Of a DNA stretch of 64,000 nt, positions 2,275 through 14,844 are shown piece after piece (positions within the stretch are counted from its first letter, which is position 1; the number at the start of each line of letters is the position of its first letter). The stretch comes from Candidatus Sumerlaeia bacterium. Its GTDB lineage: Bacteria > Sumerlaeota > Sumerlaeia > SLMS01 > JAHLLQ01. Location of the stretch: contig JANQSL010000065.1 of assembly GCA_028284075.1 (NCBI GenBank), forward strand, positions 1 to 64,000, in the 5' to 3' direction. The position numbers and the translations under genes were made by a program. The notes beneath the pieces were generated by a model. It was not told where the DNA came from, searched no databases, and was given only the letters and a program-made list of their open reading frames with translations.

Positions 2275-3207
2275 ATGTTCAGGGAGCGCATTTCACTTCG
2301 CGAGAACCTGGCGGCGATTCCATTCATTCTGCCTTTCCTCGTGGTTTTCGCTCTGTTTATCGGTTATCCGCTGTTTTACAGTCTCTTTCTCAGCTTCCAC
2401 AAAGCCACGATTTTTTCGGATTTTTATAATGTCTTCGGAACCATGCAGTATGTTGGTTTCGGAAATTATCGCAAGATTCTGACAGAACCGGTTTTCCTCT
2501 TTTCGATACTTCTGACGCTTGTGTACGCCCTCCTGATCATAGGTCCGGGAATTGCACTCTCTCTAACGCTCGCTCTGATGCTGAATCGAAAATCACGCTC
2601 GGCAGCCTTCATGCGAAGCGGTTTTTTCCTCCCCAATGTCTTCGATATCTATGTCGTCGGTGTTATCTGGTTGATGATTTACAATCCGAGGGGAGGTATC
2701 GTATCTCCCATCCTTGGCTTCTTTGGATTCGAGAGCCTTGCTTCAAACGGCGTATTGAACAATGCATGGCTGACGCTTCCGGCAATCGCTCTCGTCATGG
2801 TGCTCAAGAACGCCGGCTTTGGAATGATCCTGTTCTTAACGAGTCTGAACAACATTTCCGAATCGATCTTCGAGGCTGCCGATGTTGACGGTGCCAGCGG
2901 CTGGCAAAAACTCGTTCATATCACAATTCCCATGCTGCGCCCCACGATTCTCTTTTTGTCCATAACGGGCCTGGTGGGCGCTCTGAATGCATTCGCCGAG
3001 ATTTATGCACTGACGGACGATACGGGTGGAACGAGCCTTGAAATCGGAGACACAACGCTTCGCAGCGCAAACGTCAGCGGGTATCATCTTTTCAAGGTTT
3101 TCAACGAGTCCATGTATGGCGAAGCGGCGGCGATCAGCTTCGTTCTGCTGGCTATCGCAATCGTTATCGCCTGGATCAACTTCCGCGTCCTGAATCCGCG
3201 AGACTAG
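2275..3207 (+). CDS. ABC sugar transporter permease, MalF-like
   Basis: Six hydrophobic segments; EAA-like loop 'EAADVDGASGWQKLVHITIPMLRP'; 310 aa without the long MalF P2 loop. Confidence 0.92.
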   Translation: MFRERISLRENLAAIPFILPFLVVFALFIGYPLFYSLFLSFHKATIFSDFYNVFGTMQYVGFGNYRKILTEPVFLFSILLTLVYALLIIGPGIALSLTLALMLNRKSRSAAFMRSGFFLPNVFDIYVVGVIWLMIYNPRGGIVSPILGFFGFESLASNGVLNNAWLTLPAIALVMVLKNAGFGMILFLTSLNNISESIFEAADVDGASGWQKLVHITIPMLRPTILFLSITGLVGALNAFAEIYALTDDTGGTSLEIGDTTLRSANVSGYHLFKVFNESMYGEAAAISFVLLAIAIVIAWINFRVLNPRD

Positions 3208-3208
3208 A

Positions 3209-4597
3209 ATGACGAATACTTCACCAGAGCGCCCCGCCTACAGAGAACAGGATCAGCTTCTGCCGATGCTGAGAATGACTGCGGTCTGGATGGTTCTGAT
3301 TCTTCTTCTGGCCTTTGTTCTCCTTCCACTGTTCTGGATGATCGTGACAGCCTTTCGAACGCGTGGCACGGCGTTCCGCCTGCAGTTTGTCCCGGAAACA
3401 GAGCTGGTATTCCCTCCTTCGGAGCAAAGCGCGTATGAGCTCCCACTCCTCGATCCCGATGGGTCCTACGTTCACCTGGAACTTGAAAATCCGCAGGCAA
3501 CGAGTGTGGCTATCGTTTCTCAATCAGGCAACGAGAGCTGGCCAATGCACCTCGTCACGAACGGCCTGTGGATCGCGACAGTTGGCCCGATCGAGAAGGA
3601 GCTCACTTACCAGTTCGAGGTAAACGGTGCCAACCTGCAGCCGGACACGACAGCGGAACCCAACCATGAAGGGTGGAGCACGACGAGCGGCCTCCCTCCT
3701 GCCGAACTGAGGCGGAATGCACGACTGATCGCTTACCGTACCGGCAGCAACATCGTGGGCCACATCAGGTCCGATCGCGACCCCTTGTTCATCCGTCTTG
3801 ATGGCACCGGAGATTTCCGCATCCCGGAATCAGGGAGCTTTGAAATTCAAAATACCGATGCAGTTGGTTTCCGCCTTGTTCACAAGCGTGGTTTTCTGGA
3901 ATCCATGGGCGATCTCTACACGTGGCGAAACTTCAGAACGATTCTCTTCAGCGAGGATTTCAATTTTGCCAGATACTTCATGAACTCACTGATCGTGGCA
4001 ACGGCCGCCGCTTTTCTGACAGTGTTGCTGACAACGATGGCGGGATTCGCTTTTGCTCAAAAACGCTTCTATTTTCGGGATCCGTTGTTTGGTCTTTTAC
4101 TGGCTTCAATGCTGGTCCCTGGAATGATTTTCATGGTTCCCCAGTTTAGCATCACCGTCCGGCTTGGCTGGTTGAACAGTTTCCATGGGATGGTTATTCC
4201 CCACCTCGCGAATGTCTTTGGACTATTCCTTCTCAAGCAATATATAGCACAGATTCCAAAAGATCTTTTCAATGCCGCGGAGATCGATGGCGCGGGAGAC
4301 TTTCGGGTGTTCACGAATATTGTCACACCGGTGTGTCTTCCCATTATGGTGACTCTCTTCCTGCTGGTGTTCGTAGGACAATGGTCTAATTTTTTATGGC
4401 AGCTGATCGTGAATACAGGCGATCAGGCGACAATGACACTGCCTGTCGGCCTCCAGCAGTTCAAGGGACAGAACGCAAACGACTGGGAGCTGATCATGGC
4501 AGGTGCATGCTTTTCGATCCTTCCAATCGCAGTGCTCTTCCTGTCATTGCAAAAATATTTTCTGAGCGGTTTGACCGCGGGAGCAGTCAAGGAATGA
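3209..4597 (+). CDS. ABC sugar transporter permease, MalG-like, with approximately 180-aa extracytoplasmic insertion
   Basis: TM1 at aa ~24-50; EAA loop 'NAAEIDGAGDFRVFTNIVTPVCLPIM'; 462 aa against about 280-300 for typical MalG; insert lies between TM1 and 'YTWRNFRTILF'. Confidence 0.9.
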   Translation: MTNTSPERPAYREQDQLLPMLRMTAVWMVLILLLAFVLLPLFWMIVTAFRTRGTAFRLQFVPETELVFPPSEQSAYELPLLDPDGSYVHLELENPQATSVAIVSQSGNESWPMHLVTNGLWIATVGPIEKELTYQFEVNGANLQPDTTAEPNHEGWSTTSGLPPAELRRNARLIAYRTGSNIVGHIRSDRDPLFIRLDGTGDFRIPESGSFEIQNTDAVGFRLVHKRGFLESMGDLYTWRNFRTILFSEDFNFARYFMNSLIVATAAAFLTVLLTTMAGFAFAQKRFYFRDPLFGLLLASMLVPGMIFMVPQFSITVRLGWLNSFHGMVIPHLANVFGLFLLKQYIAQIPKDLFNAAEIDGAGDFRVFTNIVTPVCLPIMVTLFLLVFVGQWSNFLWQLIVNTGDQATMTLPVGLQQFKGQNANDWELIMAGACFSILPIAVLFLSLQKYFLSGLTAGAVKE

Positions 4598-6012
4598 ACC
4601 GCATGCTCCGTCTCTGGCTGCTCACGTGCATCGGAGCCGTGGGCCTGCTCACCTCCTGTTCCAACTCGCCTGCTATTGGAGATGACTCCCTCGAGGTTTG
4701 GCATGCATTCACGCCAGAGGAAACCATTGTCTTTCAGGAAATCGTCAATGACTACAGGAAAGCGTATCTGGAGGAGACCGGCGAATCCCTCAACGTCACT
4801 GTCAAGTATGTCTCCTATGGAGATATGTTCACCAAGTTAAGAACAGCAGCATTGGGCAATATGACTCCGGACGTCGCCTTCGTCGACGCAATTAAGGTTA
4901 CGGACCTTGCATTCGGACAGGCTTTGACCAACCTGACAACACTAAACGGATTCAGGGAAAAATACGGTGATATTTCATCGGCTCGCGCGGAGTTTGTTTC
5001 AGCCTCGTTTGATGCGGGGCTGGTGAACAGGTTGGGGGAAGTCAATCTCTATGCCCTCCCCGTCCAAACCACGACGGTCTCTCTCTTCTGGAACCGAGAG
5101 ATGTTTCGGCTACACGCCGATTCACTACGCAACGCCGGTCTGGACCCAAATCGGGCACCTCGCGACTGGGACGAGCTGATCGCGTACGGCCGCATCCTGA
5201 CCAATGCGGAACAGGGTGTGTACGGATTCGGGATGTCCGGTTCACTCTGGTTCAATTTTCCGATCTACAATATGTATGATGTTCAGTTTGTGGAGTACGA
5301 TGAGGTCGGACGGGCCCACGCACGCTTTGACAGCCCAAACGGAAAGGCGGCGCTTGAACGGCTCCTCACTCTTGCCGACAGTGGAGTTGAGGGGGGTGCC
5401 TGGCGTCGCAGTGCACTGAGCCCCGATGCGGGTTTCATCAATCGCCGCTATGCAATGATCCTGACCGGCCCCTGGCAGGTTGAGGCATTTTCCAACGCTG
5501 GTCTTGATTTTGATATCTCGTTAATTCCTGCTCCCCCGCAAAGTGAAATTGATCGGCTTGGATTGCAGCCGAAATCTCCAAAAGACGTTGAACGCCTTGG
5601 AATTCAGGCATGGTCGTCGAGTAACGTAGGCGGTCAAAGCGGAGTCATTATGCGTTCCAGTGAAAACAAGGAAGCCGCGTTTGCGTTTATCGACTACTTC
5701 ACCAGCGAGTCTGTTCAACGGCGCTGGGCAAGCAGTCTCGGTCAAATTCCCGTACGTCGCTCCGCCTGGGTCGACCTTGATACAAGCAAGTTCCCGTTCA
5801 TGACGAAATTCATGGACCAGTTGAAAATGTCTCTTCGCATTCCACAGATACCTCTTTATGGTATCCTGGAAAGCAACATCTACAATCCGGAAATTGATCT
5901 TCTATTGCAGGGCAGGCAGCCACCCGATTCCATGCTCCAGAAAATGGACGCGCAAACACAATCCGTCATCTTTGACAAAATCAACGAAGCAATCAGCGCC
6001 GACGGGGACTAG
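4594..6012 (+). CDS. Extracellular solute-binding lipoprotein (maltodextrin-type)
   Basis: ATG at 4594 overlaps the permease stop (ATGA); lipobox 'GLLTSCS'; SBP motifs 'DVAFVDAIKVTDLA', 'YAMILTGPWQVEAF'. The ORF-track start at 4396 is inside the upstream gene. Confidence 0.92.
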   Translation: MNRMLRLWLLTCIGAVGLLTSCSNSPAIGDDSLEVWHAFTPEETIVFQEIVNDYRKAYLEETGESLNVTVKYVSYGDMFTKLRTAALGNMTPDVAFVDAIKVTDLAFGQALTNLTTLNGFREKYGDISSARAEFVSASFDAGLVNRLGEVNLYALPVQTTTVSLFWNREMFRLHADSLRNAGLDPNRAPRDWDELIAYGRILTNAEQGVYGFGMSGSLWFNFPIYNMYDVQFVEYDEVGRAHARFDSPNGKAALERLLTLADSGVEGGAWRRSALSPDAGFINRRYAMILTGPWQVEAFSNAGLDFDISLIPAPPQSEIDRLGLQPKSPKDVERLGIQAWSSSNVGGQSGVIMRSSENKEAAFAFIDYFTSESVQRRWASSLGQIPVRRSAWVDLDTSKFPFMTKFMDQLKMSLRIPQIPLYGILESNIYNPEIDLLLQGRQPPDSMLQKMDAQTQSVIFDKINEAISADGD

Positions 6013-6020
6013 GTTCCACC

Positions 6021-9000
6021 CTACCGCATCATCCAGACATCTGTGTCAAAGCCGGGTGTGGTGAGATTGCGGGCACCGGGAGTCGGTGCGTTTGCATCAA
6101 CACCACTGGTCACCTCCCAGTCGTCGGCCGTGTCAGTGTCGGAACCGTTCTGATCTCTGGCCAGCGAGTGGGGAACGGTTGCATCAGGTGCGATGAGATC
6201 TCCACTAAAGAACGTGCCTGCAGGCACTATTCGGCTAACAGTATTGCCCTGTGTGGAATTCAAGTCTGCCCAATCGACATAATCCTTCCCGACACCGTAC
6301 TCATCCACAAGTCCGATGGATGCACCACGTGACAAGTCCCAGGGGATGTTGAAGCCCGCGAAGTTGGTGTCAGGAACGGGTGCGGGTGAAACCACTCCTC
6401 CCTCATCAGAAACCAGGAGATATCCGCCCGCGCCGACAACGGTCGACTCGGAAAACACAAAATCCCGCGAGACTCCCGCCGCATCGTTCATACGTAATGC
6501 CCAACCGGAGATTTCCACTGCAGCCGACCCGGGATTGAAGAGTTCAATAACATCGATATCACCGATGAGAATTTCATTTATCAGCACTTCCGGAGTTTCC
6601 GGAAAGAAAGCAAGCTCCTCGATCGTCTGCTCCGAAGTGAATTCGTCTGACATGTTCTCGGGAAGCGTATTGGGGCTGGGAAAACCTACATCGCTGGCGG
6701 TTACGGCGGCAAAACGAAGAGCACCGGGATTCGGATCTCCAAGAGCGGAGAGAGGAACACGGATTTCGAAAGCATTGGGTCCGGCGATGGATGTGCCCGG
6801 CGAAACCGGCAGACCGCCTGTGTCTGAATCATAGCTGACTGAGAATTCCGGCCGGAACTCAAAAAGATCGAACCCTCCACCAAGCCCATCTGTCCCAAGC
6901 GAATAGCCAAAGGCAATGCCCGGTTCCGTCATGCCGACAACAAGATCGAATCCATTGTTGGCAATCATTGGATCCAGAGCGAATGCGGCACGGCTGATGT
7001 CTCCCCGAAGTCCATCGGATTCGTCGTTGAGATCAGTCGCTATATCGGTCGCTCCTTCTGTGGAACCTGCATTGATATCAATATACAGAAACGAGGCATT
7101 GTCGAAGCTATTCTCCTCAGCTCCAAACATGTCGCCCCGCAATGCAACTCCAAGAACATTGTCCCGGATACCTGCATGAAGTTCTGTGAGTGTCCCGTCC
7201 TCGCCAAAATCAGCCGGCGGACCCTCACCCGGACCGTCTGCTGCGGAAACGGCCAGAACCGGTAATGCAAGCATTTCGGATGCATCGCCATCGGGCAGAA
7301 GCTGAGCAAGTGGCTCGGGAGAGATCTGGCCTGTAATGGTCAGAATGGAGCTCGCTTCCGATACAATTCCGGTTCCGTTCGGACCGGTCGATGCGACCAC
7401 ACGGACAACGAAGTCGCCGTTCTCAGTGACAATGGCATTCGGGGGCAGTACATCAGTGAGATTGTAGCTGCCAACGACACGTGTGACTTCAAAGACTCCT
7501 GTCGTCGGGTTACTCAATGTTCCGAGAATTTCCGACCCGTCAGGTGTATCGAGAAACACACGGGCATATTCCGGATCATCGCCAAAAACGCCTGCGACAA
7601 CAATCTCAGTCGGGTTGTCTACCGTATCCCCTGGCGGCATTGGATTTGTAATGGTGATGGTCGGGCCATTCACGGATTCTGGAACAGTGGTGGAAGCGAT
7701 GGCGGTTGTGGGCGGACGAGACGTGTCCGCAAGCTCGGTTGTTGCCTCAAGGAGATGGTCACCCCGTGAATACCCCCGCCATACAAAACGGAATTCGTCC
7801 CAGTCATCTCCAAGATTCTGGTCATTCTGAACAAGAATACCAACCGGAGGGAGAAGTGCCTCATCGAATGGAACGGCAGGAACGGGATTACCTCCATCGA
7901 CGGAAAGCAGGACCGCGAAATCTCCATCACCAAAGGAAATCGCGCCCCCCGGTGTAGATTGTGTATTCACGCGTACCACAATATCGTTGGGATAGACGGA
8001 ATCAAGAATCTGTGCCGGAAACGGTTGAAAATCCGACACACCGGGATCCGGATTCGTATCCACTCCGATTTCGATTTCAGGAAAAGAAAGCTCGGCATCG
8101 ATGTTATCGAAACGTGTGACGGAAACGTTTCCGGTCTGCTCGAAGGCCACAACGGCGACCTCGTGCAGTCCGTCTGTGATATTATCGACGACGCTCCGCC
8201 ATTCAAGACGATCGTGCTGTCTCGCACTGTTGCCGCTATCGACAAGAGCCAGAACATCGATATCGGCTGGCGGTGGATCGATAATGATATGAACGCTGTT
8301 GGCCGTGGCGTCAGATCCAACAACAAACTCATAGGATCTGGAAGTAATATCGCTGTCACCGGTCCGGCCCGGAAACAGTAATTCAACCTCCGGTGGAACG
8401 CGATCGACATAAACGACCTTTCGCTGAACGTCGAAAAGTGCGGGGCCGTCATCTCTTTCCAAAAAGGCAATCGATTCGAGGTAGTGATTACCCTCAGGGA
8501 GTACCGTCGCATCAATACTGACAGAGTATGTTCCTGAACCTCCTCCGGAAGTGGAACTGGCACTTGGAAACGATTCAAAACCGGCGAAGTCGCCATCGGC
8601 TGTCACAGCCATGTCACTGTCAAGATCCAGTCCATGGTCGAGTTTCACCAAAGCATTGTCATCGATCCCACCGCCCATGGACTGTAGAGTGACTTCAATA
8701 GTATCCGCGGTTACAACATCAATCGGCACAAGGCGCCGAACGCCTTCCGGCCTGCCGTCAGCCGGGTCGGCAGGAAGAGACTGGACGGAATTCGCGATAC
8801 TGAGCTCAGTCTGTGGAACTTCAGGACCATAAATAATATAGCCCTTCCCGTGAAAATTCTCGCTGCTCGAATTTCGCGGAATGCGAATGGTGACCTGCCC
8901 GCCTCCATCCACAGTGACCGAGTTGAAGATATCGGCGTCGAGGGGATCCACGACCGGATCGGCCGCATTGCCCGTCAATTCAACAAGAACGGTTCCGGGA

Positions 9001-10448
9001 GCAAATGCGGTCTGAACCGTGCGCTCGTCGAAACCAGCGTCTCCCCGGTCATTCAACCCGACAAGGCAGGCATTTTGACGCTCATAAACATAGACATCAG
9101 CATCTTCCCACCGATTGGCATAGGCTCCCCGAACATGAGTGTCGTTGATACGCAGAAGATCGAGAATAATGGTGCTGTCGACTGCCCCGTAGCCGACCGC
9201 ATTACCAAGAGCGTCATCACGGCCGCCTTTTGGGAAATCACGGCCGTCACCGAAGACAAGTGCATTGTAGTATACAACGGGGAATCCCGGGCGTGTCAAA
9301 ATGTGGGCAAGAGCAACGCTGTTGTAACCTTGGAAAAAACCAGGACCGAATTCGTCGTGACTTCCCGCAAACATGACTCCACGTGTTCCATCATTCGCGT
9401 TCCCGTCGGAGCCATCGAAGGAAGCGTTTACAATGGAGCGCATATCTCCAAATCCGCCTGCATCAAAAACACTCCGCATTGCAAAAAAGAGCGGGAAATC
9501 CAGATTGTCGCGATTGCCGAACCCGTCCTTGCGAGTATACGCTGAGAGCTGGCCAAAATCTCCGGTGAAGGTTTCGCCGAAACTGAAAGGCGTGAATGGA
9601 TCGTTGCTGCGAGGGTTCCGTCCGGCATTGAAAAGAGCGGCGTCGTAGAAGTCGTTCCAAAAAAACGTCGGGACGTGTTTGACAGCGTCGAGGCGAAAAC
9701 CATCCACTCCTTTTGTTTCCACCATCCATTGCACATAACGCAGCAGCAATCCTGTTGCGTTCTCTTCCGTCGGATCTCCAGCCATGGGATCCATGAGGCT
9801 AAAAGGATGACGGCCAAACTCCTCGGGAAGATCCTGATCAGGATAATACTGACGGTTTTCCTCGCGAGGCGTCTCATTCGGAATCAAATTCTGAAACCCG
9901 GGAACCGGATGACGAATGAACTGATGGTTCTTGTCCTGAGCAATGTCAATGAGTCCGGCGAGACGACCGTTTAAGTCGCCTCCCTCAAATGCACCGTGAA
10001 AGTCACCATCCGCATCTTCCGGCAGAGTCGTCACAAAGCCCGGGTACCCCCCGGCATCCTCAAATCCTGGCGAACTCGAGTCTCGAAATCCATTATGGTT
10101 CAGGATTGTGTCGATATACAGAAGGACATCGGCACGATCCATCTCGGAGGACATGCGAAGGAAGTCCTGTTCCGTACCATAGAGTGTCCGATCAAAGGGA
10201 GAACCCAGGTTGAATCGATCGAACACGTCATAGCCAACGGAAAATCCGCCACTGTCGGCTTTGCCTGGAGGAGGAACCCAAAGACAATCATAGCCTGCAA
10301 CGAAGGCGTCTGGAAGACGGCGTTCAATGGTTTGCCAATCAGATTCAAACCACTGGAGAATGACATCTCCCTGAGCGCTGCCAGCAGGTATCAGCAAGGC
10401 TGCGATGGCAATGGCCTGACCCACTATCCCTGCAAACGTTTCTCTCAC
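6021..10448 (-). CDS. Secreted multidomain GH13 alpha-amylase with Ig/DOMON-like regions, lamin-tail-like domain and short C-terminal tail (DTDVWMMR)
   Basis: Signal-peptide-like N-terminus; GH13 motifs 'DTILNHNG', 'DGFRLDAVKH', 'FGETFTG', 'GSHDEFGP'; C-terminal 'EVLINEILIGDIDVIELFNPGSAAVEISGWALR' typical of lamin-tail (LTD) domains. Confidence 0.88.
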   Translation of the reverse strand: MRETFAGIVGQAIAIAALLIPAGSAQGDVILQWFESDWQTIERRLPDAFVAGYDCLWVPPPGKADSGGFSVGYDVFDRFNLGSPFDRTLYGTEQDFLRMSSEMDRADVLLYIDTILNHNGFRDSSSPGFEDAGGYPGFVTTLPEDADGDFHGAFEGGDLNGRLAGLIDIAQDKNHQFIRHPVPGFQNLIPNETPREENRQYYPDQDLPEEFGRHPFSLMDPMAGDPTEENATGLLLRYVQWMVETKGVDGFRLDAVKHVPTFFWNDFYDAALFNAGRNPRSNDPFTPFSFGETFTGDFGQLSAYTRKDGFGNRDNLDFPLFFAMRSVFDAGGFGDMRSIVNASFDGSDGNANDGTRGVMFAGSHDEFGPGFFQGYNSVALAHILTRPGFPVVYYNALVFGDGRDFPKGGRDDALGNAVGYGAVDSTIILDLLRINDTHVRGAYANRWEDADVYVYERQNACLVGLNDRGDAGFDERTVQTAFAPGTVLVELTGNAADPVVDPLDADIFNSVTVDGGGQVTIRIPRNSSSENFHGKGYIIYGPEVPQTELSIANSVQSLPADPADGRPEGVRRLVPIDVVTADTIEVTLQSMGGGIDDNALVKLDHGLDLDSDMAVTADGDFAGFESFPSASSTSGGGSGTYSVSIDATVLPEGNHYLESIAFLERDDGPALFDVQRKVVYVDRVPPEVELLFPGRTGDSDITSRSYEFVVGSDATANSVHIIIDPPPADIDVLALVDSGNSARQHDRLEWRSVVDNITDGLHEVAVVAFEQTGNVSVTRFDNIDAELSFPEIEIGVDTNPDPGVSDFQPFPAQILDSVYPNDIVVRVNTQSTPGGAISFGDGDFAVLLSVDGGNPVPAVPFDEALLPPVGILVQNDQNLGDDWDEFRFVWRGYSRGDHLLEATTELADTSRPPTTAIASTTVPESVNGPTITITNPMPPGDTVDNPTEIVVAGVFGDDPEYARVFLDTPDGSEILGTLSNPTTGVFEVTRVVGSYNLTDVLPPNAIVTENGDFVVRVVASTGPNGTGIVSEASSILTITGQISPEPLAQLLPDGDASEMLALPVLAVSAADGPGEGPPADFGEDGTLTELHAGIRDNVLGVALRGDMFGAEENSFDNASFLYIDINAGSTEGATDIATDLNDESDGLRGDISRAAFALDPMIANNGFDLVVGMTEPGIAFGYSLGTDGLGGGFDLFEFRPEFSVSYDSDTGGLPVSPGTSIAGPNAFEIRVPLSALGDPNPGALRFAAVTASDVGFPSPNTLPENMSDEFTSEQTIEELAFFPETPEVLINEILIGDIDVIELFNPGSAAVEISGWALRMNDAAGVSRDFVFSESTVVGAGGYLLVSDEGGVVSPAPVPDTNFAGFNIPWDLSRGASIGLVDEYGVGKDYVDWADLNSTQGNTVSRIVPAGTFFSGDLIAPDATVPHSLARDQNGSDTDTADDWEVTSGVDANAPTPGARNLTTPGFDTDVWMMR

Positions 10449-10475: not shown

Positions 10476-13223
10476 TCACCGGAACATCCAGCCCTCGAAT
10501 TCAGGATTGATAAGCTCAACAGTCGGGAAATGCCAGTCATTACCGTCGTTGTTGTCCCACACTGTGGGAGGAGCACCGTTGTTGAAGACCATGTCGATCT
10601 GTACGGCACCCTGCGGAACTTCAAAAACGAACTCCCACACGTCGTCCGTCGTTTCCATCATCACGGCGGCATTCTGCGGATCGGTGATGGCGGTTGGGGT
10701 CCAGTTGTTCGTGCCATAGTGGATACGAACGTCCGAAGCGCCCTCGAGATTCCGCCCGGTCGAGTGGTATGTAATCATGACATCCTCGCCACGAACGGGG
10801 GGTGATGGTACCGTTATAACTGTTTGAGTGGGCTGCTCACCGCATTCGTTCGGAAATGGCGGTCCTGTTGCGGTAAAATGCCAGTCCGAGCCGTTGTTGC
10901 TGTCCCACGTCGCCATCCCGTCATTGAAAGCGAAGTCGATCTGGGCGGCACAGTCATCGACCGTAAAAGTATAGGTCCACAACCCGTCCCCGGCGTCAAT
11001 CATCTCGCCATCCGGTGAGAACACTGTCTCCCAATCGTTGATTCCGTAGTGTAAATAAACCTGAGAGGCTCCGGCCAGACTTCGCCCCGTGGAATCGTAG
11101 GTTACAGTTACCTGCTGCCCGCGAACCGGCGGGGCCGGATCGATAGTGACGACATCCGTTCCTCCCCCACCCCCGTTGCTTCCCGCTCCATCGCCTATCC
11201 AGACATGCTGAATAGGCGAACGAGTAACGTTACCACGCAAATCCACAGCTTCCACATAGTAGTCGATCAACACTTCACGCAAGTCCACAACTTCAACCGA
11301 ATAATGATCGCTGATGTGCAATGGGAGTTCAAAATAATCCACGTCGCCAAAATCGAACGGCTCGTCCTTTGAAAAGGGACGTCCCTCCATTGGGAGGTCG
11401 ACCCATTCTCCAACACCTGCACCACCGGTATACAGATGGTTGGCCGTATCATCCAGGCCGATGGCTCCGTCATCGTCCATGCGATACTTCAAGGTCACGC
11501 TCTCGATGTCACTGACATCGTAGACGAATGTCCAGATTGCAAAATCGCCGTTGTTAAAAACCTCGGCGTAGTTGTGGGCCGGTCCGGAATTGAAACTACC
11601 GGGGTTGTACGGATAGCGCTGCGGCAGCCAGACCGTGGGTGGCGTCATATCCATGGCGGAATTCGCAATGCCGGCAAGAAGCGGATCAACATGCTCCGCC
11701 ATCTCGTTGCAGCCCAAAGCACCCTTGTTTTCCTGATCCAGAGCTGCACCAAAGTAGACATTTCCCGAATCCAAAGCGCCCAGCAGGTAGTGCCAGCCGC
11801 GTTCCGTTGCGTTTGTTGAAGTGTCGGGAAACACGATCCTGTTAACGTTACGAGACAGACCACTGACTTGCTCCGCCGTGAGCAGCCGATTCAAAGCGGC
11901 ATGAAAAACCGCCATTTCACGGGCCTTGTTGTGCCACCCGTTAATCGGATCGAAACCGTTTTGAGTGATAAGCGGATAGTTCCACTGGTTGAACGTGGGG
12001 CTGCCAAAGTCGTTGTCAGGATTGATCCAGCCGCCGTCTTCCACGTGGAAAACACGGCTCTCCGCGGGAGGGAACTGATTGAGATAGTGCTGGATGCTTG
12101 TTGTCTCATTCCCCAACCCTGCAGCCGCGTTGGCAAGATTTGGAACATTCTCGAAGTAGTACGAAAAACCTCCTCCAAACGCGTTGTCGCCGTCATGGGC
12201 GAGAACAACAAGAGAGGGTTGAGCGGGATCGTTTGCCGCCTCCAGATCCGTCAGAAAGGATGCCCCCAAAGGGCCGAACCCGTCAGCATAGCTCATTGCC
12301 TGATCAGAGGGAACGCCAATGACCTTTGAAACCTCTCCCGTGTTCGGGTCGATATATTCAATCCACGAAGGCTGATAGGAAAGTGGATTGGCATGTCTGG
12401 GAGTACCGCGACTATCGGGAGCTGATCGGGCAATGTAGTTTCTCGCGGCGGGGTTGCGTGCGTCCGCCATATTCGGTGCGTTGCAAATGTCACCGCCAGT
12501 GCCCCGTACATATGGATAGTCGGGACAAGCTCGAGCGACCTTGTGACCGGAGACAATCGACCACTCGATGCCATTGGCTTCAAGAACGGGAATCAGCCGA
12601 ACGGAAAACGCCATTTCGGTGGGAAAGAAACCCTTCGAGATATATTGAGAGCCAAGCTCGACGCGTACCTTTTCCTGGAAAGTTTTGAGCTCCATATCCA
12701 CAATTTCCGAATCGAGAAGGGCGAGCAATCCATGGTGAAAGGAAAAATTGACGAGATCCAGTCGCGGGGCACCCGTTGAAGTCTTCCAACCGTGCCCCTG
12801 CTTGAGAGAGTCTTTCCACTCGGTCCCGCCATAGCCAATCTGACCCGCGTTGGCGAGGTCCTCGACATTCTCCATCAATGCACCGGAATACGATACGGAA
12901 GCTCCGGAGTCAGGATGATTTTCGCCAATGTTTCCAAGGGCATCACGAGTCCTTCCCTGGTAGACGGCCTTGCGATCATCTTTACCAAAGATATCGCGAA
13001 GGTTGTTTTCAGGAAACTGCGAGCCGCCGTCCTTCTCTGTAATCGATTCCCAGGCGAATTCATAGCGATCCGTTGCCGTCACTCTTGACTGATCGTTCCA
13101 ATATATGGGCTGGTGCAAATGCCAGTGCCAGGTAACCTTGGGCCGCGTGTTTTGCGCCGGTATCGCGGAGCCAATAGTCGTGCAGAGGGCTGCAAGAATC
13201 AGATCGCGGACCCTTGACTTCAT
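10476..13223 (-). CDS. Secreted GH57-like glycoside hydrolase with two C-terminal CBM25-like starch-binding modules
   Basis: Start refined to MKSRVRDLILAALCTTIGSAIPAQ (signal peptide); 'VTWHWHLHQPIYWND' GH57 N-terminal signature; tandem 'PAPPVRGQQVTVTYDSTGRSLAGASQVYLHYGINDW' and 'PSPPVRGEDVMITYHSTGRNLEGASDVRIHYGTNNW'. Confidence 0.85.
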   Translation of the reverse strand: MKSRVRDLILAALCTTIGSAIPAQNTRPKVTWHWHLHQPIYWNDQSRVTATDRYEFAWESITEKDGGSQFPENNLRDIFGKDDRKAVYQGRTRDALGNIGENHPDSGASVSYSGALMENVEDLANAGQIGYGGTEWKDSLKQGHGWKTSTGAPRLDLVNFSFHHGLLALLDSEIVDMELKTFQEKVRVELGSQYISKGFFPTEMAFSVRLIPVLEANGIEWSIVSGHKVARACPDYPYVRGTGGDICNAPNMADARNPAARNYIARSAPDSRGTPRHANPLSYQPSWIEYIDPNTGEVSKVIGVPSDQAMSYADGFGPLGASFLTDLEAANDPAQPSLVVLAHDGDNAFGGGFSYYFENVPNLANAAAGLGNETTSIQHYLNQFPPAESRVFHVEDGGWINPDNDFGSPTFNQWNYPLITQNGFDPINGWHNKAREMAVFHAALNRLLTAEQVSGLSRNVNRIVFPDTSTNATERGWHYLLGALDSGNVYFGAALDQENKGALGCNEMAEHVDPLLAGIANSAMDMTPPTVWLPQRYPYNPGSFNSGPAHNYAEVFNNGDFAIWTFVYDVSDIESVTLKYRMDDDGAIGLDDTANHLYTGGAGVGEWVDLPMEGRPFSKDEPFDFGDVDYFELPLHISDHYSVEVVDLREVLIDYYVEAVDLRGNVTRSPIQHVWIGDGAGSNGGGGGTDVVTIDPAPPVRGQQVTVTYDSTGRSLAGASQVYLHYGINDWETVFSPDGEMIDAGDGLWTYTFTVDDCAAQIDFAFNDGMATWDSNNGSDWHFTATGPPFPNECGEQPTQTVITVPSPPVRGEDVMITYHSTGRNLEGASDVRIHYGTNNWTPTAITDPQNAAVMMETTDDVWEFVFEVPQGAVQIDMVFNNGAPPTVWDNNDGNDWHFPTVELINPEFEGWMFR

Positions 13224-13248
13224 CAAAATTCTGTTCACACAGTGCTCC

Positions 13249-14844
13249 TTAACGCTTGCCGGCCAAATGCCCGCGTGCCGTCGGCACTTCCTTGCGATGA
13301 GTGCCGTTCCCATTGCTCATGGAACCATTGAAACGCTGGAAAGCAATCAGCTGATCACGCATGGTTCGCGCCCGCTGCTCATCAAGTGAGCCCTCTTCGA
13401 ATCTCCATTGCCAGTTGCCTCGCTGGGTTCCAGGGGTATTCATTCTTCCCTTCGTTCCCACTCCAAGAACATCCTGAACCGGCACAATAACCGTGTTTGC
13501 CGCGCTCGCAAAACCGGCTGTCATGATTCCCTTTTCGGGTCGTTCACCGATCTGTCCAAGGTATTGAAGAATGCGGATGTGTTCTTCGTCTGTGGCATGT
13601 TCTTCATACCACTCGCGAGTCGTGGGATTGTCATGGGTACCGGTATACACGACGGTATTCGGCTTGATCTCGACCGGAAGACTTGAGCCGCGTCGAGTGG
13701 GTGGAATCGTCTTCTTCGTCCCCCAGACAAACTGCAAAGGCTCCATTCCCGGAAAGTTATAGCGCTCACGCAGCTCCTCGACCGCCTTTGTAATAACACC
13801 GAGATCCTCTGCGATAACAGGCAAAGGACCGAATTCACTCCGGAGTGTGTCGAACAACTCCTCACCTGGAGCCATAATCCACTTGCCGTGACGGGCGGTC
13901 TTCTCACCCCACTTCACACTCCAGTAATTGCGGAATCCGATGAAGTGATCGAGTCTTACGATATCGAACGTGTCCAGCAGTGTGCGGAAGCGATCAATCC
14001 ACCAGGCAAAGCCTTCCTCGCGCATTTTGTCCCAGCGGTAGAGCGGATTTCCCCAAAGCTGTCCGTCTTCCGAGAAGTAATCAGGAGGAACTCCCGCCAC
14101 ATGGGTCGGCATTCCCGTGCAATCCAGCTGAAACAACTCCTGATTTGCCCAGGTATCCGCGCTGTCGAGCGCCACGTAGATAGGCAGGTCACCAACGATC
14201 CGGATTCCCCGTTGATGGGCAGCCTCCCGCACGCAACCCCACTGTGATGCAAAAAGATACTGAACAAAAACATGGAAACGGATTTCAGAAGCATACTGCC
14301 GCCGTGCCCTGCGCAACGCGGCTCCATCCCTTGCCCTGAACTCCATCGGCCACTCGAGCCAGCAGCGCCCGCCGTTGGCATCCTTCAATGCCATAAACAA
14401 CGCATAGTCCTTCAGCCACGGTTGCACGGTCTTGCGGCGCTGAAATGCCGCCATTCTTTTGCGCATGGAGGAAAAACCGCCATCCTCAAAGCGCCCGTAT
14501 GCCTTGCGAAGCAAATTCAGCTTCCATGGAATGACATGCCCATAATCGACCTGATCGCTCTTGAAGCCAACACCTTCAAGGTCGCTCTCTTCAACAAGAC
14601 CTTCCTTCAAGAGCAACTCGGGGCTGATGAGATAGGGGTTGCCTGCAAAAGCTGAGAAACACTGGTATGGTGAATCGCCGTAGCCGGTGGGACCGAGGGG
14701 CAAAACCTGCCAGAGAAAAAAACCCGCGTCTCTTGCCCAATCAAGAAAGCGAATCGCCTGAGGACCCAGGTCCCCTATGCCGAAAGGACCGGGCAGGGAA
14801 GTCGGGTGTAGCAGAATTCCGGCTGTGCGCTGATCGAGAACCAT
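13249..14844 (-). CDS. malQ: 4-alpha-glucanotransferase (GH77)
   Basis: 'RTAGILLHPTSLPGPFGIGDLG', 'QVLPLGPTGYGDSPYQCFSAFAGNPYLI', 'VRLDHFIGFRNYW', 'VIAEDLGVIT', 'YTGTHDNPTT'. Start refined to M at 14844. Confidence 0.96.
   Translation of the reverse strand: MVLDQRTAGILLHPTSLPGPFGIGDLGPQAIRFLDWARDAGFFLWQVLPLGPTGYGDSPYQCFSAFAGNPYLISPELLLKEGLVEESDLEGVGFKSDQVDYGHVIPWKLNLLRKAYGRFEDGGFSSMRKRMAAFQRRKTVQPWLKDYALFMALKDANGGRCWLEWPMEFRARDGAALRRARRQYASEIRFHVFVQYLFASQWGCVREAAHQRGIRIVGDLPIYVALDSADTWANQELFQLDCTGMPTHVAGVPPDYFSEDGQLWGNPLYRWDKMREEGFAWWIDRFRTLLDTFDIVRLDHFIGFRNYWSVKWGEKTARHGKWIMAPGEELFDTLRSEFGPLPVIAEDLGVITKAVEELRERYNFPGMEPLQFVWGTKKTIPPTRRGSSLPVEIKPNTVVYTGTHDNPTTREWYEEHATDEEHIRILQYLGQIGERPEKGIMTAGFASAANTVIVPVQDVLGVGTKGRMNTPGTQRGNWQWRFEEGSLDEQRARTMRDQLIAFQRFNGSMSNGNGTHRKEVPTARGHLAGKR

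Follow-up and report, generated by a model that had tools for sequence, protein, structure and literature searches.

A CBM48-fold insert in the periplasmic P1 loop of a MalG-like sugar permease from a Candidatus Sumerlaeia bacterium

The MalG-like permease described here carries, in its periplasmic loop P1, an insert composed of a CBM48 domain and a second β-domain, a likeness that lies beyond chance. The protein is encoded in a 64,000-nucleotide stretch of Candidatus Sumerlaeia bacterium DNA (contig JANQSL010000065.1), hereafter called the window, whose relevant features are collected in Table 1. Long MalG loops as such are already known from the Thermotogales. It is the CBM48 identity of one kind of them that appears to be new, since a search of open papers (subscription papers and InterPro architecture lists lay outside it) returned neither a CBM48 assignment for long MalG loops nor a CBM48 or starch-binding domain in an ABC permease.

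Table 1. The malG gene of the window, its domains and the genes that accompany it
Feature	Position in the window	Strand	Evidence
Gene for a GH13 amylase that has CBM48 and CBM34 at its N terminus; truncated on the 5' side by the contig edge	1..2271	+	
Gene for a MalF-like permease (310 aa) that lacks the P2 domain of enteric MalF	2275..3207	+	
malG-like permease gene, CUT1-type importer subunit with periplasmic insert, 462 aa	3209..4597	+	ORF; NCBIfam MalG/UgpE-like matches on aa 249-462
Insert in periplasmic loop P1 of MalG, aa 67-236, between TM1 and YTWRNF	3407..3916	+	Hydropathy
Domain 1 (aa 85-161) of the insert, with a CBM48 fold; most canonical ligand residues have been lost	3461..3691	+	
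Domain 2 (aa 171-229) of the insert, a β-domain that is probably another, diverged copy of CBM48/E-set	3719..3895	+	AF2 strands, hhalign
EAA-type coupling loop of MalG (NAAEIDGAGDFRVFTNIVTPV), intact	4271..4333	+	
Solute-binding lipoprotein gene (SBP_bac_1; lipobox LLTSC)	4594..6012	+	Pfam E 5.7e-31

The open reading frame, Pfam and the hydropathy profile agree with the original prediction of a 462-residue MalG enlarged directly after TM1 and ahead of YTWRNF, and the peptide quoted in its support is present. The limits it gave for the insert, 3371-3910, were right to within about 36 nt of the non-permease stretch. TM1 covers approximately residues 16-51, the next hydrophobic segment beginning only at residue 256, while the Pfam permease domain BPD_transp_1 is confined to residues 277-451 (E 3.1e-14). 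The insert measures about 170 amino acids and is followed by a conserved YTxxNF motif; the same TM1-TM2 loop is 21-36 amino acids long in short-loop relatives. The EAA coupling motif, AAEIDGA, is found at residues 356-362, and the intact state of this loop indicates an ATPase-coupled permease. One TOBE_2 ATPase candidate, encoded elsewhere in the genome at C10:36921, may be its partner. The permease core is 92% identical to that of the nearest relative, with the EAA loop conserved, whereas the identity of the insert is far lower (60%). Foldseek matches of the permease are 8ja7_B, 3rlf_G and 2r6g_G. The window-type insert is absent from the MalG paralogues examined in the same genome. Another MalG-type permease of this genome (L024, C10:31593-32645) has a P1 loop extension of about 90 amino acids, unrelated in sequence.

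The malF, malG and solute-binding protein (SBP) genes are contiguous, the start of the last overlapping the malG stop codon (ATGA), and the order malF-malG-SBP is shared by almost every relative whose flanking DNA is long enough to show it. In several Sumerlaeota, a GH13 gene lies upstream of this trio. The relatives' copies of the GH13 amylase start with a signal-peptide-like segment, so that the operon enzyme is probably exported. Two other gene products encoded on the minus strand of the window may be mentioned here. A GH57 amylase (10476-13313) carries CBM53/CBM25 starch-binding modules at its C terminus and adjoins a GH77 4-α-glucanotransferase, and a 1475-aa protein (6021-10448) combines an N-terminal α-amylase domain with a C-terminal lamin-tail domain (LTD, E 1.9e-9), an unusual pairing.

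Taken alone, the window insert gives weak profile matches (GlgB_N at E 0.002, below the cut-off, and TreZ, also weak), and a phmmer search of the PDB with it finds no CBM48. The identity is settled by the profile matches of its homologues. Indeed, 12 of 20 homologous MalG inserts match Pfam CBM_48 and 11 of the 20 match AMPK1_CBM, which also gives the best score (E 1.2e-13). A profile built from 20 MalG inserts retrieves from the PDB the CBM48s of AMPK β, pullulanase 5ot1, a CE1 esterase and GlgB, with E values down to 5e-7. The AlphaFold2 model of the window insert, computed as a single chain, has two β-rich parts (pLDDT 89.8, pTM 0.81) and an E-set β-sandwich fold. Its best Foldseek matches are mostly CBM48-bearing chains, many of them at probability 1.00, and no MalF occurs among the top 50. 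Superposition on the AMPK β1 CBM (4yef) gives a TM score of 0.72 by target length and 2.7 Å over 79 columns. CBM48-CE1 esterases and GH13 enzymes (6rzn, 7b5v, 5ot1) are among the best structural and profile matches; in those proteins the CBM48 is an enzyme module, whereas in MalG it is inserted in a permease loop. The CBM48/E-set features originally read from the letters of the insert are thus borne out by Pfam on the homologues, by the insert profile and by the predicted fold. So is the parallel drawn with the amylase of the same operon, which has a CBM48 too: hhalign relates the CBM48 part of the MalG insert to the operon GH13 CBM48s with a probability of 97.9. The window insert is a CBM48 by fold and descent rather than a demonstrated binding module.

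A single extra domain had been expected. A β/E-set domain is there, but the insert holds two β-domains, not one. By hhalign, domain 2 resembles the CBM48 part of MalG (probability 86.8) and not the CBM34 region of the amylase (probability 0.4), which suggests a second, divergent CBM48/E-set copy; it is probably CBM48-derived. A recent origin of the insert in the amylase's CBM48-CBM34 pair was rejected: for each insert the closest sequences are those of other MalG inserts, and the amylase has a second domain unlike domain 2 of the insert.

In AMPK β1, the sugar is contacted by W100, K126, W133 and N150 (PMC2642990, PMC4032982). The window MalG has Q in place of K126 and L in place of W133 and shows no FNxW motif, and a W aligns at the first site (W100) only via an SW pair in a gapped region. 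The W/K/W set is intact in the MalG of four relatives, L018 (a member of the window's own family), L047, L049 and L054, and the contact residues are partly kept in L038, L039, L042 and L043. All six operon GH13 CBM48s, including that of the amylase in the window operon, have W/K/W intact. Thus, the MalG domain has the fold of the AMPK β glycogen-binding domain and, in the four relatives, the same ligand residues; it differs in sitting inside a membrane permease and, in the window copy, in having lost those residues for the most part. In the 11-row clade that contains the window (support 100/97), no member with a readable CBM48 retains the W/K/W set, while L018, just outside this clade, does. 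The most economical reading would be a single loss of the sugar-contact residues, the fold being maintained afterwards. In families f1 and f2, the reading frame and both insert domains are retained after the loss of the site.

Among 40 Sumerlaeota genomes, the long MalG is complete in 12 and truncated by a contig end in a thirteenth, giving 12-13 in all; in family f6 the loop is of the short form, and matches are partial in three genomes. The long form also has a patchy distribution in other phyla. It is present in Planctomycetota, Uabimicrobium amorphum included, with matches in seven of 294 sampled genomes (one of the seven is shortened), in one of 297 sampled Acidobacteriota genomes, which is the genome used as centre, and also in Lindowbacteria, in Muiribacteriota and on a contig labelled as Dependentiae. 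Relatives have either a short loop, a loop with domain 2 only or, in the case of Cloacimonadota, a loop in which a helix-hairpin-helix domain takes this position. Since some relatives (L050-L053 and L055) have a short loop, of 25-36 amino acids where measured, the insert is dispensable for this importer type. A Planctomycetota MalG (L046:2314-3420) has a loop with domain 2 and without the CBM48 domain, the domain-2 profile matching at E 4e-12; for domain 2 alone in L036 and L037, the profile support is weak by comparison (E 0.26 and 0.0057). No loop class is given for L035, which a contig end truncates.

Other inserts occupy the TM1-TM2 loop of MalG homologues from Cloacimonadota and UBP17 (L058:8001-9263, L059:7932-9266, L060:8369-9838 and L070:3666-4979). 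In L059, L060 and L070 the insert matches HHH_3, a ComEA-type helix-hairpin-helix (E 1.5e-9 to 2e-14). This fold is usually linked to DNA binding; here it lies inside a sugar permease. In Muiribacterium halophilum (L064:6465-9152), both malF and the CBM48-bearing malG are interrupted, each of them by a single in-frame stop codon (TAA near 6930 and TAG at 7926), which could reflect decaying genes, an assembly error or read-through.

In a permease-core tree, the long-form MalG proteins all belong to one group, inside which the insert types are scattered; the insert-type labels require 9 changes, versus 22.7 in shuffles. The tree is equally compatible with an old gain followed by several losses and with repeated gain or transfer.

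We propose that MalG is a subunit of a type I (CUT1) ABC importer for α-glucan oligosaccharides, whose P1 would present two tandem E-set domains on the outer face of the permease, beside the expected docking place of the SBP. This placement follows the E. coli system, where, according to the title of Daus et al. 2007 (cited in PMC3150292), MalE interacts with MalF P2 and MalG P1. Ancestrally, the domain would have held near the importer the α-glucan chains freed by the exported GH13 amylase. In the window's clade, where the sugar-contact residues are lost while the fold is kept, docking or gating of the tethered solute-binding lipoprotein is the most likely role. That a glucan-binding domain at MalG P1 later became mainly a docking or gating module in this clade is a reading to which we give an even chance. 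In the window species the insert is probably a docking or structural piece, while that of some relatives may still hold glucan. The original suggestion that the insert may bind glucan itself is thus tenable for those relatives in which W/K/W is intact and doubtful for the window species, in which these residues are mostly gone. A broader scheme is offered tentatively, as it is possible but rather doubtful: MalG P1 would be an evolutionary docking slot for substrate-handling domains, and, where the CBM48 residues are intact, the permease would grip the α-glucan beside the SBP, feeding a relay from exported amylase to SBP to permease, with polymer recognition built into the transmembrane subunit.

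Could the insert of the window species still be an active glucan-binding module, with a rearranged site that raises the local substrate concentration at the importer? The predicted CBM48 fold and the α-glucan operon setting with amylases are consistent with this, some aromatic residues are left (SW, GLW, GW), and other sugar-contact surfaces, beyond the reach of sequence comparison, may exist. However, the substitutions at the K126 and W133 equivalents, the absence of FNxW and the poorly anchored first-site W make it unlikely, as does the retention of W/K/W in the CBM48 of the operon's own GH13, unlike in the MalG insert. It is also quite improbable that the insert has decayed into a functionless remnant, tolerated because its loop faces the periplasm. 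Its low identity relative to the permease core and its shortening or absence in some relatives would agree with decay, but a confident globular fold is still predicted, and frame and domains have outlasted the site in both f1 and f2.

The docking or gating role must also be distinguished from the initial idea that the SBP-contacting P2 domain of MalF had moved to MalG. Although both are periplasmic, β-rich and expected near the SBP, and the window MalF does lack P2 as stated, such a move is highly improbable: loop and subunit differ, the matches are to CBM48 and not P2 (no MalF chain among the best 60 of 68 profile matches or the top 50 fold matches of the insert), Thermotogales combine MalF P2 with a long MalG region, and MalF proteins lacking P2 are described from other clades (PMC2246101). 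A MalF of this kind is the ordinary state in CUT1 importers. Separate enlargement of the two loops, MalF P2 and MalG P1, is favoured over a move.

Compared with E. coli MalFGK2 and CUT1 importers (MalG, UgpE, SugB), the window importer has the permease core, the EAA loop, the MalF partner and the SBP_bac_1 protein in common. It differs in a P1 larger by about 170 amino acids with CBM48-type domains, in a MalF without P2, and in an SBP gene that lies downstream and encodes a probable lipoprotein. By its published description, Thermotogales MalG1/MalG2 resembles the window MalG in that TM1 and TM2 are separated by a large hydrophilic region, to which no function was assigned. This region is longer, however (about 500 versus about 170 amino acids), had no similarity recognised in 2008 and exists alongside a MalF with P2 (PMC2246101).

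The natural series of loops, with an intact site, a lost site, domain 2 only, no insert or another domain, makes the role of the insert directly testable. The binding protein is usually held responsible for substrate selection in ABC sugar importers. A CBM fold in the permease, at the loop that touches the SBP in E. coli, would add a second layer of recognition or docking to the transporter. The assignment supplies a domain identity for one type of long MalG P1 loop; loops of this length were pointed out in Thermotogales in 2008 without a known function.
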